Origin: Paraburkholderia aromaticivorans
Lineage (GTDB): Bacteria > Pseudomonadota > Gammaproteobacteria > Burkholderiales > Burkholderiaceae
Assembly (NCBI RefSeq): GCF_002278075.1
Contig: NZ_CP022990.1
Location: 62,001 to 126,000 of the forward strand
Direction of reading: 5' to 3'
Length of the DNA stretch: 64,000 nucleotides
The translations under genes and the position numbers were made by a program. This document shows, in pieces, positions 32,091 through 37,348 of this stretch; within the stretch, counting starts at the first letter, position 1, and the number at the start of each line of letters is the position of its first letter. The notes under the pieces are model-generated. The model was not told the origin of the DNA and searched no databases. It saw only the letters and a program-made list of their open reading frames with translations.

Positions 32091-33257
32091 ATGAGTGACA
32101 CCATGCAGCCGCCGTTTTCCATTCTCTTCGTCGACGACGATGAGATGTCGCGCAACCACTTCGCGCGCGCGATGAGCGCCGACTACAACGTGCACGTCGC
32201 CCGTGACGCCGATGAGGCGATGACCGTGCTCAGCCGGTACGGCGCCGAGATTGCCGTGCTGGTGACCGACTTCCGCATGCCGGGCCGCGATGGCGACGAC
32301 CTGCTGCGCGAGGTGGCGCAGGCGTATCCGCAGATCGTGCGCATTCTCGTGACCGCCTATGCCGACAAGGACATGCTGCTGCAGACGGTCAATACCGGCG
32401 ACGTGTTCCGCATCCTCGAAAAGCCGCTGCGAACGGACATGGTGCGCGAGGTCCTGCAACTGGCGACCGCGCGCTACACGGAACGGGAAACGCGTCAGCA
32501 GCGGCTCCTCGCGATGGACGAGACACTCGCTTTCCTCGCCCACGAACTGAATACACCGCTGGCGACGATCTCGCTGTGCGCGCGCTCGGTCGAGAACGAC
32601 GTGGCCGCGCAATACGATCCGCAGCGCCAGCGGGAGATCGGCCTCGCGGCCACTTCAATGCTGAACAACGCGCAGTATTGCCTGACCTTGATCTCGTCGT
32701 TCTGGGCGACCGTGCACAAGAGCGGCGGCCAGCAGTCCGCGTCGGGCGGCGCCACGCGCGCGGTCAGAGCAACCCGTTTGATTGCCGCATTGCTCGACAC
32801 TTATCCATTTGTCGCGTCGCAGCGCGATTGGGTCAAGGTCGACGTGGAGGGGGATTTCGTCGTGCACGCCATGCCCAATTGCGTGGCGCTCGTCTTGTCT
32901 TCGTTGTTGTCCAATGCACTGCGCGCGCTCGACGGCAGAAGCGCGCCGTCGCTGCGTGTGGAGGTCGTGGCCTTTCCCGAGCCCGAGATCCGTATTCGCG
33001 ACAACGGGCCGGGGATCGCGCCCGAGATAAAAGCGCGTCTGCTGCAAGATCCGGTCACCACTCACTCCGGAGCCGGCGGCCACGGCATGGGCATGATCTT
33101 TTGCAACCGCATCATGCAATCGTTTGGCGGCTGCCTGCGGATCGAATCCACGTTGGGCGCGGGGACCACGGTGACCATGGGCTTTCCCGGTTCCAACGGC
33201 CGCCTGCACGCCACGGGCGACGAGGAACCGTCGGACACTCAGTTGGCCTCGCGATGA
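32091..33257 (+). CDS. Response receiver with C-terminal histidine kinase domain (PhcQ-like)
   Basis: Cytoplasmic protein of 388 residues. The N-terminal receiver has the VDDDE acidic cluster (14-18), phospho-acceptor Asp60 (LVTDFRMPGRDG), Thr88 (LVTAYADKD) and Lys111 (LEKPL). A kinase half follows: HisKA with His151 in AFLAHELNTPLATI, then an ATPase with N-box SLLSNALRAL, G1 DNGPGIAPE and G2 GGHGMGMIFCNRI. The VRILVTAYADKD...VFRILEKPL layout resembles PhcQ-type regulators of the Ralstonia Phc quorum system. No DNA-binding domain. It converges with the CqsS-like kinase gene (13-base gap), and its preferred partner is probably that kinase. The start follows CAGGAATGCG. Confidence 0.82.
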   Translation: MSDTMQPPFSILFVDDDEMSRNHFARAMSADYNVHVARDADEAMTVLSRYGAEIAVLVTDFRMPGRDGDDLLREVAQAYPQIVRILVTAYADKDMLLQTVNTGDVFRILEKPLRTDMVREVLQLATARYTERETRQQRLLAMDETLAFLAHELNTPLATISLCARSVENDVAAQYDPQRQREIGLAATSMLNNAQYCLTLISSFWATVHKSGGQQSASGGATRAVRATRLIAALLDTYPFVASQRDWVKVDVEGDFVVHAMPNCVALVLSSLLSNALRALDGRSAPSLRVEVVAFPEPEIRIRDNGPGIAPEIKARLLQDPVTTHSGAGGHGMGMIFCNRIMQSFGGCLRIESTLGAGTTVTMGFPGSNGRLHATGDEEPSDTQLASR

Positions 33258-33270
33258 GACCGAACGGCTT

Positions 33271-35829
33271 TCATGGCCATTCGTCGCGTAAGAGATCGCG
33301 GTGTTCGCGGCGTGCGTTGGCTGAAGCGAAATAGGCCTGCAGCGCGTGGGTCGAACGCTCGCTCAACGTGTCGATGCGCGCGAGCCAATCCGCTTGCGCC
33401 GGCCATCCGCCTTCCACCAGCCGCGCGTAAATCTGCCTGACGAATTGATGCAGCGCCCTTGCGCCAATGTTGCCGCTGACGCCGAGCAGAAGGTGCAGCG
33501 CGCCCTGTGTCGATTCGAGGTCCACGGCTGCGACACTGACCGCAAGCCGCGCCACGAGCAGGCGAATCTGCTCGATGCCTTTGAGGAACGAGTCGTCGAG
33601 CAGCTCGAGCGACGCCAATTCTTCGAGGTGCTTTTCGTCGAGCAGTTCGCCTTCCGTCATCATGGCAGGCGTGCCGGCCGGCGTGGGCGCCGGCGTTGCC
33701 GGCGCACCGGCTGGGGTGGGAACGGGCTCGCCGCGTTGGTGTGCGAACTGCCGCGCAAGGCACGCGTAGAGCGAGCCGCTTTGCAGCGGCTTTATCATGA
33801 CTTCGTTCATGCCCGCGGCCAGACACGCCTGCACCGCCTTGATGTCCGCCTGGCCGGTCAGGGCAATGATCGGCACGGCGGCATACGCGTCGGCGCGGGC
33901 ACGAATCAACTCGGTCGTTTCCACGCCGCCCATGCCCGGCATATTCATATCCATGACGATGGCGTCGATCACACCGTCCCGCTGCAGATGGTCGAGAACC
34001 GCCTGCCCATGGTCGGCCTCGACGACGCTCGCGCCGCATCGCTCCAGATAGCCTTTGGCCACCAGCCGGCTGTAGGTGTCGTCGTCCGCCACCAGGATCG
34101 ACTTGCCGGTGAACGCGTCGGATTTCTGGTTCAGATGGTGCCGGTTGCCGTTTTCGAACAGCGCCTGAAGCGCCGTAATCAATTCGAGCACGCTGCAGGA
34201 CTTGCTGATGATCTCGTCCATGCCGGCTCGCCGTGCGAGCACGCGCACCACCGTGCCGGGCTCCGCGGTGTACGCGGCGATCAGGACATTCCAGCTCGGA
34301 TCGCCGTGGCCGGCGCGAATGGTCTCGGTGGTCCGGTAGCCGTCCAGAACCGGCATGTTGATATCCATCAACACGAGGTCGTAGGGAATGGACTCCCGCA
34401 GCACGGTCAATGCGATCGCGCCGTTTTCGGCCTCGCTCACGTGGGCGCCTACCTTCGATAACGCCCGCGAGGCCCTTGCGCGCTGACCCGCGTCGTCGTC
34501 CACGATGAGAATACGCTTGCCCTTGAAGAACGGCGTGGCGTGTTCGAGAATCCGCCGCTCGTGCTCCGCGACTTCGCTCTTCGGGACGACCGGAAATTGC
34601 AGCGTGAATTCCGTGAACTTGCCGAGTTCCGAGCGGCACGCAATGCTGCCGCCGAAGGCTTGCATCGCGCGCTGGCAGTAGGCGAGTCCCAGTCCTGTCC
34701 CGCCCGAGTTTCCCGCCGTGCGAAACGGCTCGAACAGATGCGCCAGCATCTCGGGCGCGATGCCCGGGCCGGTGTCGCGAACCACGACCGACTGTTGTTC
34801 GACCGTCAGCGTGAGCGTGGCCGCCGGCTGCGCGGCGATGTGCTGCAGCGCGTTCTTGATCAGATTGAACACCGTGAACAGATAGACGGTTTCGTCGACC
34901 TTGAAGGTGAAATCTTCCCGCACGACCAGCCTGACCTTGTCGCGTTCTGTTTCGTCGCCGAAGCCGTATTCCTCCAGCGCCTTACGCGTGGTGCCCGCCG
35001 CGCTCAGATAGGTCAGGCAATCCGGGCGAATGGGCTTGGCGCTGACTTCGTCCAGCGTCATGGCGATGATGCGCAGGCCGCGCTCGATCGACAACTGGCC
35101 ATGCGCGAGATGGCGATACAACTCGCCGGCGTTCTCGCGCGGCAGCGCCGGCGAAGGGTTGGTTCTGGCCGTCGAAGGCAGGGCTTCTTCCACGCGATCC
35201 AGCACATAGCGCAGCTGGCTGAGCGGATTGCGCATTTCATGGGCGATCGAACCCGCGAGGGCCTGCAACGCGCGGTTCTTTTCGACGAAGATGCGCCCTT
35301 TGCTGATGGCATGACTGAAGGCCATGCTGCACAGGACGACCACCGGCAGCACCGCGAGATTCGACTGATCGGCCGCGCTCACCACGATCGGCACCGGGGA
35401 ACTGAGCACCGCGGCCAGCGCGCCGGAAAACACGCCAATGCCGATGCAGCCCATCAGCAAAAGCGGATTGTCGATGCATAGCGCCAGAATGAAGATCATC
35501 ATGACCTCGGTCATCATCCACATGGTGGAGAATGAGTTTCTGATCGCGAGGAAGGTGCAAACGAAGGGCAATACGTAGATCAGGCAGCAATGCCAGTAAA
35601 TCAGCAGGTAATGATTGAACCGTTTTGGCCAATGCGCCTGGAAAATCAAGGGAATGCAGACGAGCGCCGCACTCAGCCGCAGGGGGAGGTTGTCGTAAGG
35701 CTGGGGCAGGACATAGGTCCAGACTACGTAGTAGATGGGGTGGCACAGGAGGCCCAGTGCGCCGCCCCATCGTATTGCAAACCGGCTTCTTTCCAGCACG
35801 TCCCGCATGCTCTCGCGCGGTATGACCAT
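33271..35829 (-). CDS. CqsS/LqsS/PhcS-family hybrid histidine kinase with two receivers and an Hpt-like tail
   Basis: Predicted quorum-signal receptor of 852 residues. The first 180 residues hold about six membrane segments; GLLCHPIYYVVWTYVLPQ then PYDNLPLRLSAAL and FSTMWMMTEVMM closely follow the sensory domain of Vibrio CqsS. The Trp that helps CqsS read its ligand is kept (TMWMMT). HisKA has His197 (SIAHEMRNPLSQ); the ATPase has NLIKNALQH, DTGPGIAPE and GGTGLGLAYC. Receiver 1 has Asp489 but SKS rather than a KP motif; receiver 2 has Asp627 and Lys680. After a Pro/Thr/Ala linker, an Hpt-like domain carries His779 in LHLLLGVSGNIGA, with Leu in place of the usual Lys. The ATG at 35829 follows GGAGG. 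The AAR-like gene ends 17 bases upstream. Confidence 0.87.
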   Translation of the reverse strand: MVIPRESMRDVLERSRFAIRWGGALGLLCHPIYYVVWTYVLPQPYDNLPLRLSAALVCIPLIFQAHWPKRFNHYLLIYWHCCLIYVLPFVCTFLAIRNSFSTMWMMTEVMMIFILALCIDNPLLLMGCIGIGVFSGALAAVLSSPVPIVVSAADQSNLAVLPVVVLCSMAFSHAISKGRIFVEKNRALQALAGSIAHEMRNPLSQLRYVLDRVEEALPSTARTNPSPALPRENAGELYRHLAHGQLSIERGLRIIAMTLDEVSAKPIRPDCLTYLSAAGTTRKALEEYGFGDETERDKVRLVVREDFTFKVDETVYLFTVFNLIKNALQHIAAQPAATLTLTVEQQSVVVRDTGPGIAPEMLAHLFEPFRTAGNSGGTGLGLAYCQRAMQAFGGSIACRSELGKFTEFTLQFPVVPKSEVAEHERRILEHATPFFKGKRILIVDDDAGQRARASRALSKVGAHVSEAENGAIALTVLRESIPYDLVLMDINMPVLDGYRTTETIRAGHGDPSWNVLIAAYTAEPGTVVRVLARRAGMDEIISKSCSVLELITALQALFENGNRHHLNQKSDAFTGKSILVADDDTYSRLVAKGYLERCGASVVEADHGQAVLDHLQRDGVIDAIVMDMNMPGMGGVETTELIRARADAYAAVPIIALTGQADIKAVQACLAAGMNEVMIKPLQSGSLYACLARQFAHQRGEPVPTPAGAPATPAPTPAGTPAMMTEGELLDEKHLEELASLELLDDSFLKGIEQIRLLVARLAVSVAAVDLESTQGALHLLLGVSGNIGARALHQFVRQIYARLVEGGWPAQADWLARIDTLSERSTHALQAYFASANARREHRDLLRDEWP

Positions 35830-35846
35830 CAGGCCTCCAGTGACGT

Positions 35847-37073
35847 CTACGAACCCATCAATTCATGCTTGCCGCGAAGTTGTGCATCCAGCGTGATCGG
35901 CGAACCGTTTTTCCCATGAAACGGCCCGACCGCGAAACCGTACTTCTTCAGCAGACTGTGCGTGTAGGAGACGGACCACACGGGCGGGCTGCCGATAATG
36001 AAGTCGGACGCAATGCCTTCCTGCCAGGCGGAATAACCTTCGGCGAAACAGGTATAGCAATCGCGCGTGGTGGGCAGCCGGAACGGGAAGGTGGTATTGA
36101 GTCCGGCAGGGCCACGAGCGAAACACTCAATATATAGCGTATGGCTGCGTGACGCGAGTTCAGCCTCGACGCTCGCCGCCCGGGGATGGGAGTCGTCGAT
36201 CCAGAACTGCGCGCGCTTGAGGTCGTCGGCGGTGAGGTAGGGCACGCTGGTGCTGCTCGCCAGAATGGCGCCGTCGAACTCCGGCAACGGCGTGTTCGGA
36301 CTGAAGGTGTGCACCGAAACGCGGGTCCTGCCGAGCAGGTCCGAGGCCATCAACTCTTTGGCTTGCTCGGTGAGCAGGTTCACCTTGTCCGGCAGGTCGA
36401 TCAAAACGAGTTCGCGCGGTGCATCTTTATAGAGCGCGTATTTGGCTACCGTCGTGCCGAGCCGGCCCGCGGCGCCGAATAGCGCCAGCTTCGTCTTGCC
36501 GAATTCGAGGTCGAGTTCATTGCAGCAGTGCATCGCCCAGTCTTTCAGCATCGCCGCGGTGGCGGCGTGGCCGGTGGTGATATGCGGCGGTCTGGTATCG
36601 CGCGGCAGTGCGCCGTAGTTGCAGGCATAAGGCGTGGAAGCGCCCATCGCCACCATGTTCAAGCCCGCTTGCCTTGCCAGTTCCAGTGCCGGGAAAAATT
36701 GCGTCTCGCGGAATCGCTTGATGCCGCGCGGGCTTCCCAGCCACATCTCGAGAGGAACCGGACAGGCAATATTGGCCCCGATGATCTGAGATCCTGAATA
36801 GATCGGCGATGCAATGAAAGGCCTGGTTTGCCAGAGTTCTTCTTCAAAAGACGCGTTTCTGGTCTTGACGTTATGAAATGAAAACGAAAGCGTATCCCAG
36901 TCGGTAGCGTGAAATAGAAACCCCACTCCGCCTTGACCCGCAGGCAGGTTATCGCGGATCTCTTCCGGGGTGATGGTGTGTTTGAGTGCCAGGGGGGCGC
37001 TATTTTGAAGGTGACGAATGCCGGTTGGCTCGTCGGGATTGGTTATTACTTTGTGGTGAACAGAGGTTCTCAT
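35847..37073 (-). CDS. AAR-like (fatty acyl-ACP reductase-like) Rossmann oxidoreductase, candidate signal synthase
   Basis: Cytoplasmic protein of 408 residues. A Rossmann nucleotide loop is seen in LALFGAAGRLGTTVAKY (about 196-212). Several blocks parallel cyanobacterial AAR, which reduces acyl-ACP to aldehyde: ITTGHAATA before the loop, LPEFDGAILASSTS after it, and TCFAEGYSAWQEG at 341-353, where the Cys matches AAR's acyl-accepting Cys (Cys342 here). About 100 extra N-terminal residues are not explained. The ATG at 37073 with AAGGGA upstream is preferred to the frame start at 37133. Followed after 17 bases by the CqsS-like receptor gene, so it may make that receptor's ligand. The AAR link is by eye and the reaction is inferred; a plain dehydrogenase role is possible. 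Confidence 0.62.
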   Translation of the reverse strand: MRTSVHHKVITNPDEPTGIRHLQNSAPLALKHTITPEEIRDNLPAGQGGVGFLFHATDWDTLSFSFHNVKTRNASFEEELWQTRPFIASPIYSGSQIIGANIACPVPLEMWLGSPRGIKRFRETQFFPALELARQAGLNMVAMGASTPYACNYGALPRDTRPPHITTGHAATAAMLKDWAMHCCNELDLEFGKTKLALFGAAGRLGTTVAKYALYKDAPRELVLIDLPDKVNLLTEQAKELMASDLLGRTRVSVHTFSPNTPLPEFDGAILASSTSVPYLTADDLKRAQFWIDDSHPRAASVEAELASRSHTLYIECFARGPAGLNTTFPFRLPTTRDCYTCFAEGYSAWQEGIASDFIIGSPPVWSVSYTHSLLKKYGFAVGPFHGKNGSPITLDAQLRGKHELMGS

Positions 37074-37348
37074 TTGATTTTCCCTTTGATTGAACTCACG
37101 CCGGAGAATCAGCGCGACAGTCGACCGACACAATTGATGGTCAACCCTTCAACTCTAGAGAAAACTAATACAGCGTGCCCGTCTGTTGGTTCGCATTGCG
37201 CAGAATGGGCGTCGAGGCCGAATTCCGGATGCCCGCCTCGAGCAAAAGTTACCCACAGAAAATGTTCATATCCTTGTGGACAAGTCCTGGCCAGTCGGGC
37301 TAACTGATTGAGCGCAGGGCAATTTCTCCGTCATGACAGCGAATGTGC

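Follow-up and report, generated by a model that had tools for sequence, protein, structure and literature searches.

The 64,000-nucleotide stretch of Paraburkholderia aromaticivorans DNA considered here (the window; contig NZ_CP022990.1, positions 62,001 to 126,000, on contig C2 of the 8.9 Mb host genome labelled G000) contains two neighbouring genes that probably form a synthase-receptor operon of CqsS-type quorum sensing, in which a thioester reductase of the acyl-ACP reductase (AAR) superfamily takes the place of CqsA. The receptor-enzyme pair, which occurs in soil bacteria of the genus Paraburkholderia and in a small number of distant relatives, is judged by its sequence to be a strong candidate for a novel type of signalling system in bacteria. 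A preliminary description of the region had read the AAR-like enzyme as the signal synthase for a CqsS-type receptor, and this interpretation is supported by the present analysis. The three open reading frames on which it was built lie where it had placed them, at 32091-33257 (plus strand, 388 amino acids, aa, counted from this start), 33271-35829 (minus strand, a kinase of 852 aa) and 35847-37073 (minus strand, the enzyme of 408 aa). The enzyme gene is the upstream member of the minus-strand pair; its stop codon and the start of the kinase gene are separated by 17 bases, and the two are presumably cotranscribed.

The AAR fold spans the entire enzyme (ATG at 37073, stop at 35847). The Rossmann loop and CFAE-type cysteine that had been claimed for it are both present, as GAAGRLG (residues 200-206; 36456..36476, minus strand), which fits the loop pattern GX(1-3)GX(1-2)G, and as TCFAEG, which holds Cys342 (codon at 36048..36050, minus strand); further motifs are TTGHA at 166 and DDSHP at 293. 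Cys342 is invariant in the alignments A1 (20 rows), A2 (17 rows) and A4 (19 rows). For AAR itself the dinucleotide loop GATGDIG and the catalytic cysteine C294 have been reported (PMC7089970). Profile A2 aligns Cys342 with the cysteine of the AAR motif ACFAEA, which makes it the predicted counterpart of C294, while the A1 alignment ends before this residue. The proposed relation to AAR holds at the level of the superfamily, by fold, cysteine and loop, but not at that of the equivalog: the long-chain acyl-ACP reductase model TIGR04058 gives 19.8 bits against a curated cut-off of 449.7, and identity as a plain AAR was rejected on this score. The enzyme is only 20% identical to the cyanobacterial AAR (6jzq/6jzu). 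The PigE reductase domain and the carmabin TAD (9e4s, 9e50, 9e56) work in natural-product pathways, whereas the reductase of the window is free-standing beside a receptor kinase. Since profile A2 contains relatives that lie beside genes of non-ribosomal peptide synthetase size, its very strong match to TAD is partly built in; the A1 match is cleaner, but weaker and ending before Cys342. Around the active site the initial structure model was of poor quality, and model 2 took its place.

The kinase (33271..35829, minus strand) is a hybrid sensor kinase with the Pfam order sensor-HisKA-HATPase-REC-REC-Hpt, in which HisKA and Hpt score below the Pfam cut-offs and the relay residues H197, D489, D627 and H779 are in place. 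Its sensor domain (residues 1-180; 35290..35829) had been called CqsS-type on the motifs PIYYVVWTYVLPQ, PYDNLPLRLSAAL and TMWMMT, all of which are found in the kinase, and the assignment is borne out by homology to Vibrio CqsS. The identity to the Vibrio campbellii CqsS sensor is 23%, and ten columns (Y33, W37, Q43, P44, L48, R51, Y78, S101, W104 and G132) are invariant in an eight-row alignment that includes this protein. Hydropathy gives merged membrane segments between residues 24 and 177, where six helices are expected of the CqsS type. W104 and S107 are reported to govern the head-group preference of Vibrio cholerae CqsS, and the last membrane helix to govern tail length and head-group size in Vibrio; LqsS of Legionella has a serine at the W104 position (PMC3376566). 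The receptor of the window keeps W104, whose number in V. cholerae follows from the alignment with V. campbellii together with the published C170/F175 offset, but has T107 in place of S107 and a diverged last membrane helix.

Relatives were gathered from genome searches only, in an even sample of 398 genomes of the family drawn from a larger group. Enzyme matches occur in 27 of these genomes, 20 of them near full-length (the window's own included, as well as G242 with a deletion inside), one a remnant and six remote (25-31% identity). The receptor lies directly downstream of the enzyme in 20/20 near-full-length loci, and a PhcR-like gene is also present in 16 of these 20, the window counted. 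A separate scan of named contigs with two peptide patterns, which can miss relatives and on which the breadth of the distribution rests, returned 52 loci: 45 labelled Paraburkholderia or Burkholderia, the closest being Paraburkholderia xenovorans LB400 (94% identity), and seven others (56-69% identity). These seven are from metagenome-assembled genomes (MAGs) of Oxalobacteraceae, SAR92, Porticoccaceae and Proteobacteria, from a MAG labelled Rickettsia typhi, and from two Candidatus Thiosymbion. A CqsS-type kinase stands beside the enzyme in 52/52 loci (45/45 and 7/7), on the same strand in 50 and on the other strand in two, and chance neighbours were rejected on this linkage; the counts are not independent, as there are strains common to loci L112-L163 and L028-L046, and some species occur twice. 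L157 and L163 show a four-base overlap between the enzyme and receptor genes. Of the 45 Paraburkholderia/Burkholderia loci, 35 retain the PhcR-like gene and 18 the next commonest neighbour family, in a count of unannotated families; what is conserved as a unit is therefore the pair, often joined by the PhcR-like gene as a third member. When 300 genomes from the order were scanned, two of the same genus (the host included) and one weak remote match came up, and the plasmid collection held no enzyme relative at E 1e-5.

Related receptors are paired with other enzymes. Receptor matches occur in 95 of the 398 family genomes, and 61 receptor loci were inspected, the window included, which cover 18 of the CqsA-type loci listed and all 19 of a class with receptors of about 860-940 aa. 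Among receptors of the window class (at least 60% identity in the sensor) the AAR-like gene is present in 20/23. In the 860-940 aa class a KAS III-like gene lies directly upstream on the same strand in 16/19 loci, and a PhcR-like gene is present in 8/19. Receptors of about 450 aa have CqsA in 16/18 loci, in six of them directly upstream on the same strand, like the AAR-like gene at the window; with a cut-off of 428 bits, the CqsA proteins of L101 and L105 reach 606 and 565. One receptor (L183) has no partner enzyme, and no mixing of enzyme types at one locus was seen among the 61 loci. On a receptor tree of 71 rows the enzyme label changes 8 times, against a shuffled mean of 36.2, and 0/200 shuffles were as low; the tree has some long branches, and near-copies favour clustering. 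The CqsA/CqsS system of Vibrio and the LqsA/LqsS/LqsR system of Legionella resemble the window in sensor type, in the place of the synthase next to the receptor and in a kinase with a receiver domain, and CqsS shares with the window receptor the invariant residues, W104 among them. The enzyme of the window differs in being an AAR-superfamily reductase rather than a pyridoxal phosphate-dependent CqsA, and the kinase in its two REC domains and an Hpt domain.

In the host genome the best CqsA score is 194.4 bits genome-wide (NF005526; cut-off 428), so that a cqsA homologue elsewhere that could pair with the receptor, a possibility raised at the outset, was not found above the cut-off, and the place of CqsA is held by the AAR-like gene. 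Nor does the genome contain a second CqsS-type receptor at a good E-value, the three weak matches lying at E 0.1-0.24. In the proposed system, the enzyme would take up an acyl-CoA or acyl-ACP and the acyl group would move to Cys342, where NAD(P)H would reduce the thioester to an aldehyde. This aldehyde, or a product of other enzymes acting on it, would leave the cell and reach the hybrid kinase. Having sensed it through its membrane domain, the kinase would alter phosphoryl flow through H197, D489/D627 and H779 and onward, probably, to the PhcR-like protein.

With less confidence we lean towards a wider view, in which CqsS-type receptors are a modular platform on which enzymes of at least three unrelated types (CqsA, KAS III-like and AAR-like) have replaced one another as partner, each with a different acyl-derived signal. 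The AAR-like branch would then represent a new autoinducer class formed by reductive release of an acyl thioester, as a fatty aldehyde, alcohol or derivative, and used by Paraburkholderia and sporadically by gammaproteobacteria, among them SAR92 and Candidatus Thiosymbion. To our knowledge, the acyl signals of Gram-negative bacteria are made by a handful of synthase types. If the reading is correct, a reductase as synthase implies a new chemical class of signal, and different enzymes have come to be paired with a single receptor scaffold. As three enzyme types occur with one receptor family within one bacterial family, the joint change of receptor and synthase specificity is directly testable. 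The pairing was found in no title or abstract among those listed in our literature searches, whose coverage leaves out most subscription papers and preprints, so that absence is unproven. In a word search of a 2026 review, the words aldehyde, acyl-ACP reductase, PhcS and Paraburkholderia are absent (PMC13220807).

Several observations weigh against a synthase-receptor operon of this kind. No receptor was seen in the stretches fetched around the six remote superfamily relatives, the receptor is on the opposite strand in L158 and L161, the PhcR-like gene is absent from 10/45 loci, and no other third gene stands beside the pair in more than 18/45. Free fatty aldehydes are reactive, and a further enzyme may therefore be needed. 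The TIGR04058 score is far below its cut-off, so substrate and product of the cyanobacterial AAR are not transferable to the enzyme of the window. At 10 of the 16 CqsA loci, CqsA is convergent and one gene away rather than upstream, and on the receptor tree the enzyme-linked receptors are not one clade, a KAS-linked clade nesting inside them with weak support. Finally, CqsA scores above the cut-off in 13 of 49 enzyme-bearing genomes (in one with an internal stop), LB400 included, and cross-talk is possible. An lqsA/lqsS cluster has been reported for B. xenovorans (PMC3285556, PMC3376566), for which the CqsA of LB400 can account.

The enzyme could instead be an output or housekeeping target, with the kinase sensing some other lipid or aldehyde cue and controlling a fatty-aldehyde-forming enzyme of membrane or storage metabolism. 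Two-component genes often adjoin the genes under their control, and a conserved block upstream of the enzyme gene (see below) suggests regulation. We nevertheless regard this as unlikely, because the sensor is of the CqsS type and six related loci carry CqsA, a known autoinducer synthase, directly upstream; because neither the kinase nor the PhcR-like protein has a DNA-binding domain by Pfam; and because the genome contains no second close match to the block and, the PhcR-like gene apart, no neighbour is kept in more than 18/45 loci. Very unlikely, in our estimate, is a role in removing or modifying a signal, in which an acyl-derived signal would come from elsewhere and the reductase would serve as a quencher or as an adaptation step on the signal or its precursor. 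Thioester reduction could drain a precursor pool, and three receptor orthologues persist without the enzyme, but an exchange for CqsA or a KAS III-like condensing enzyme is unexpected of a signal-destroying partner, and the host genome lacks both a CqsA above the cut-off and a second good CqsS-type receptor (a KAS III-like enzyme was not sought genome-wide).

The synthase reading has an overlapping special case, in which the aldehyde formed by the enzyme is the precursor of an alpha-hydroxyketone; a thiamine enzyme encoded elsewhere would couple the aldehyde with an acetyl unit and yield a signal like CAI-1 or LAI-1 by a route other than CqsA. The retained W104 speaks for such a product, as does PigD, for which direct addition of an acetyl unit at the aldehyde carbon of 2-octenal has been reported (PMC8341465), while T107 in the place of S107 and the diverged last membrane helix speak against it; we consider this case rather doubtful.

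The convergent gene (32091..33257, plus strand) encodes a REC-HisKA-HATPase protein with D60 and H151. It had been described as PhcQ-like, which is wrong: PhcR is published as REC-HisKA-HATPase and PhcQ as a receiver only, in the gene layout phcB-phcS-phcR-phcQ (PMC8578825), and the PhcQ-like identity was rejected on this domain layout and on 62% identity over 374 aa to the third-gene product of a phcBSRQ-like operon in the same genome. Like PhcR, it combines REC with HisKA/HATPase and has no DNA-binding domain by Pfam, as compared with that product. The phcBSRQ-like operon lies outside the window (L210:3342-8342; G000:C2:2522341-2527341) and consists of four genes, for a methyltransferase, a 444-aa membrane kinase, a REC-kinase (the second PhcR-like gene of the genome, at C2:2525219) and a REC protein; a likely insertion element follows in two inverted copies. 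Its sensor kinase resembles that of the window in the kinase core only (28% over 249 aa), which indicates a separate channel that may share downstream parts. A phcB homologue elsewhere as partner of the window receptor had also been raised; no PhcB stands beside this receptor, and the methyltransferase sits in the separate operon with a kinase of its own. The window resembles PhcBSRQ of Ralstonia in its PhcR-like convergent gene and differs from it in having no methyltransferase in the synthase place. One PhcR-like gene per genome was rejected as a rule, since at E 1e-60 16 of 19 chosen genomes have one, G000 has two and two have none; phc-like operons may be the source of the 58-61% PhcR-like matches in G020, G065 and G320.

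About 75-115 bases upstream of the enzyme start lies a conserved block (37149..37187, minus strand) that consists of AACAGACGGGCA, 12 bases and TTTCTCTAGAGTTGA, and may serve the enzyme-kinase operon as a promoter or as the site of a regulator. Its 15-base core is kept with at most one change in 18/19 family loci besides the window; neither the KAS-type loci nor the seven loci from outside Paraburkholderia showed it at up to two mismatches. The host genome has 17 sites at up to three mismatches, a single exact one among them, against 14 for a reversed control; the block was therefore rejected as the mark of a regulon.

Single loci depart from these arrangements in several ways. Three window-class receptors lack an intact enzyme gene (L047 in G225, with a remnant, L087 in G335 and L088 in G004) and are possibly listeners without a signal of their own. 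Within the subfamily the receptor was kept and the enzyme lost, never the reverse, as expected if the receptor can listen to neighbours. The KAS III (FabH)-like enzyme (L089:5077-6171, L090, L091, L092, L094, L177-L182 and L185-L189) is a second candidate synthase; in L089 its Cys, His and Asn motifs look intact. In L095:3869-7514 the genes for CqsA and an LqsS-like receptor are convergent and separated by a gene for an LqsR-like receiver, and similar CqsA/LqsS-like modules occur in other genomes of the genus and family (L096-L100, L102-L104, L195). In a Thiosymbion locus (L160) an open reading frame lies between enzyme and receptor and the receptor gene is interrupted, and a second, partial enzyme-receptor copy is present. 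In the MAG of an uncultured Paraburkholderia symbiont (5.2 Mb; L046/L150) the enzyme is shortened by an internal deletion and neither the kinase nor the PhcR-like gene has an intact frame, which looks like decay of the system in a host-bound lineage. A gene with weak PP-loop ATPase-like matches adjoins the AAR-like gene in two remote loci (L158:9143-10198 and L161:7501-8553), and a more remote relative in L051:7054-8262; its product may act on the aldehyde or a precursor. In the SAR92 MAG an aldo/keto reductase gene (L157:10345-11238) is convergent with the enzyme-receptor pair and could convert the aldehyde to an alcohol.
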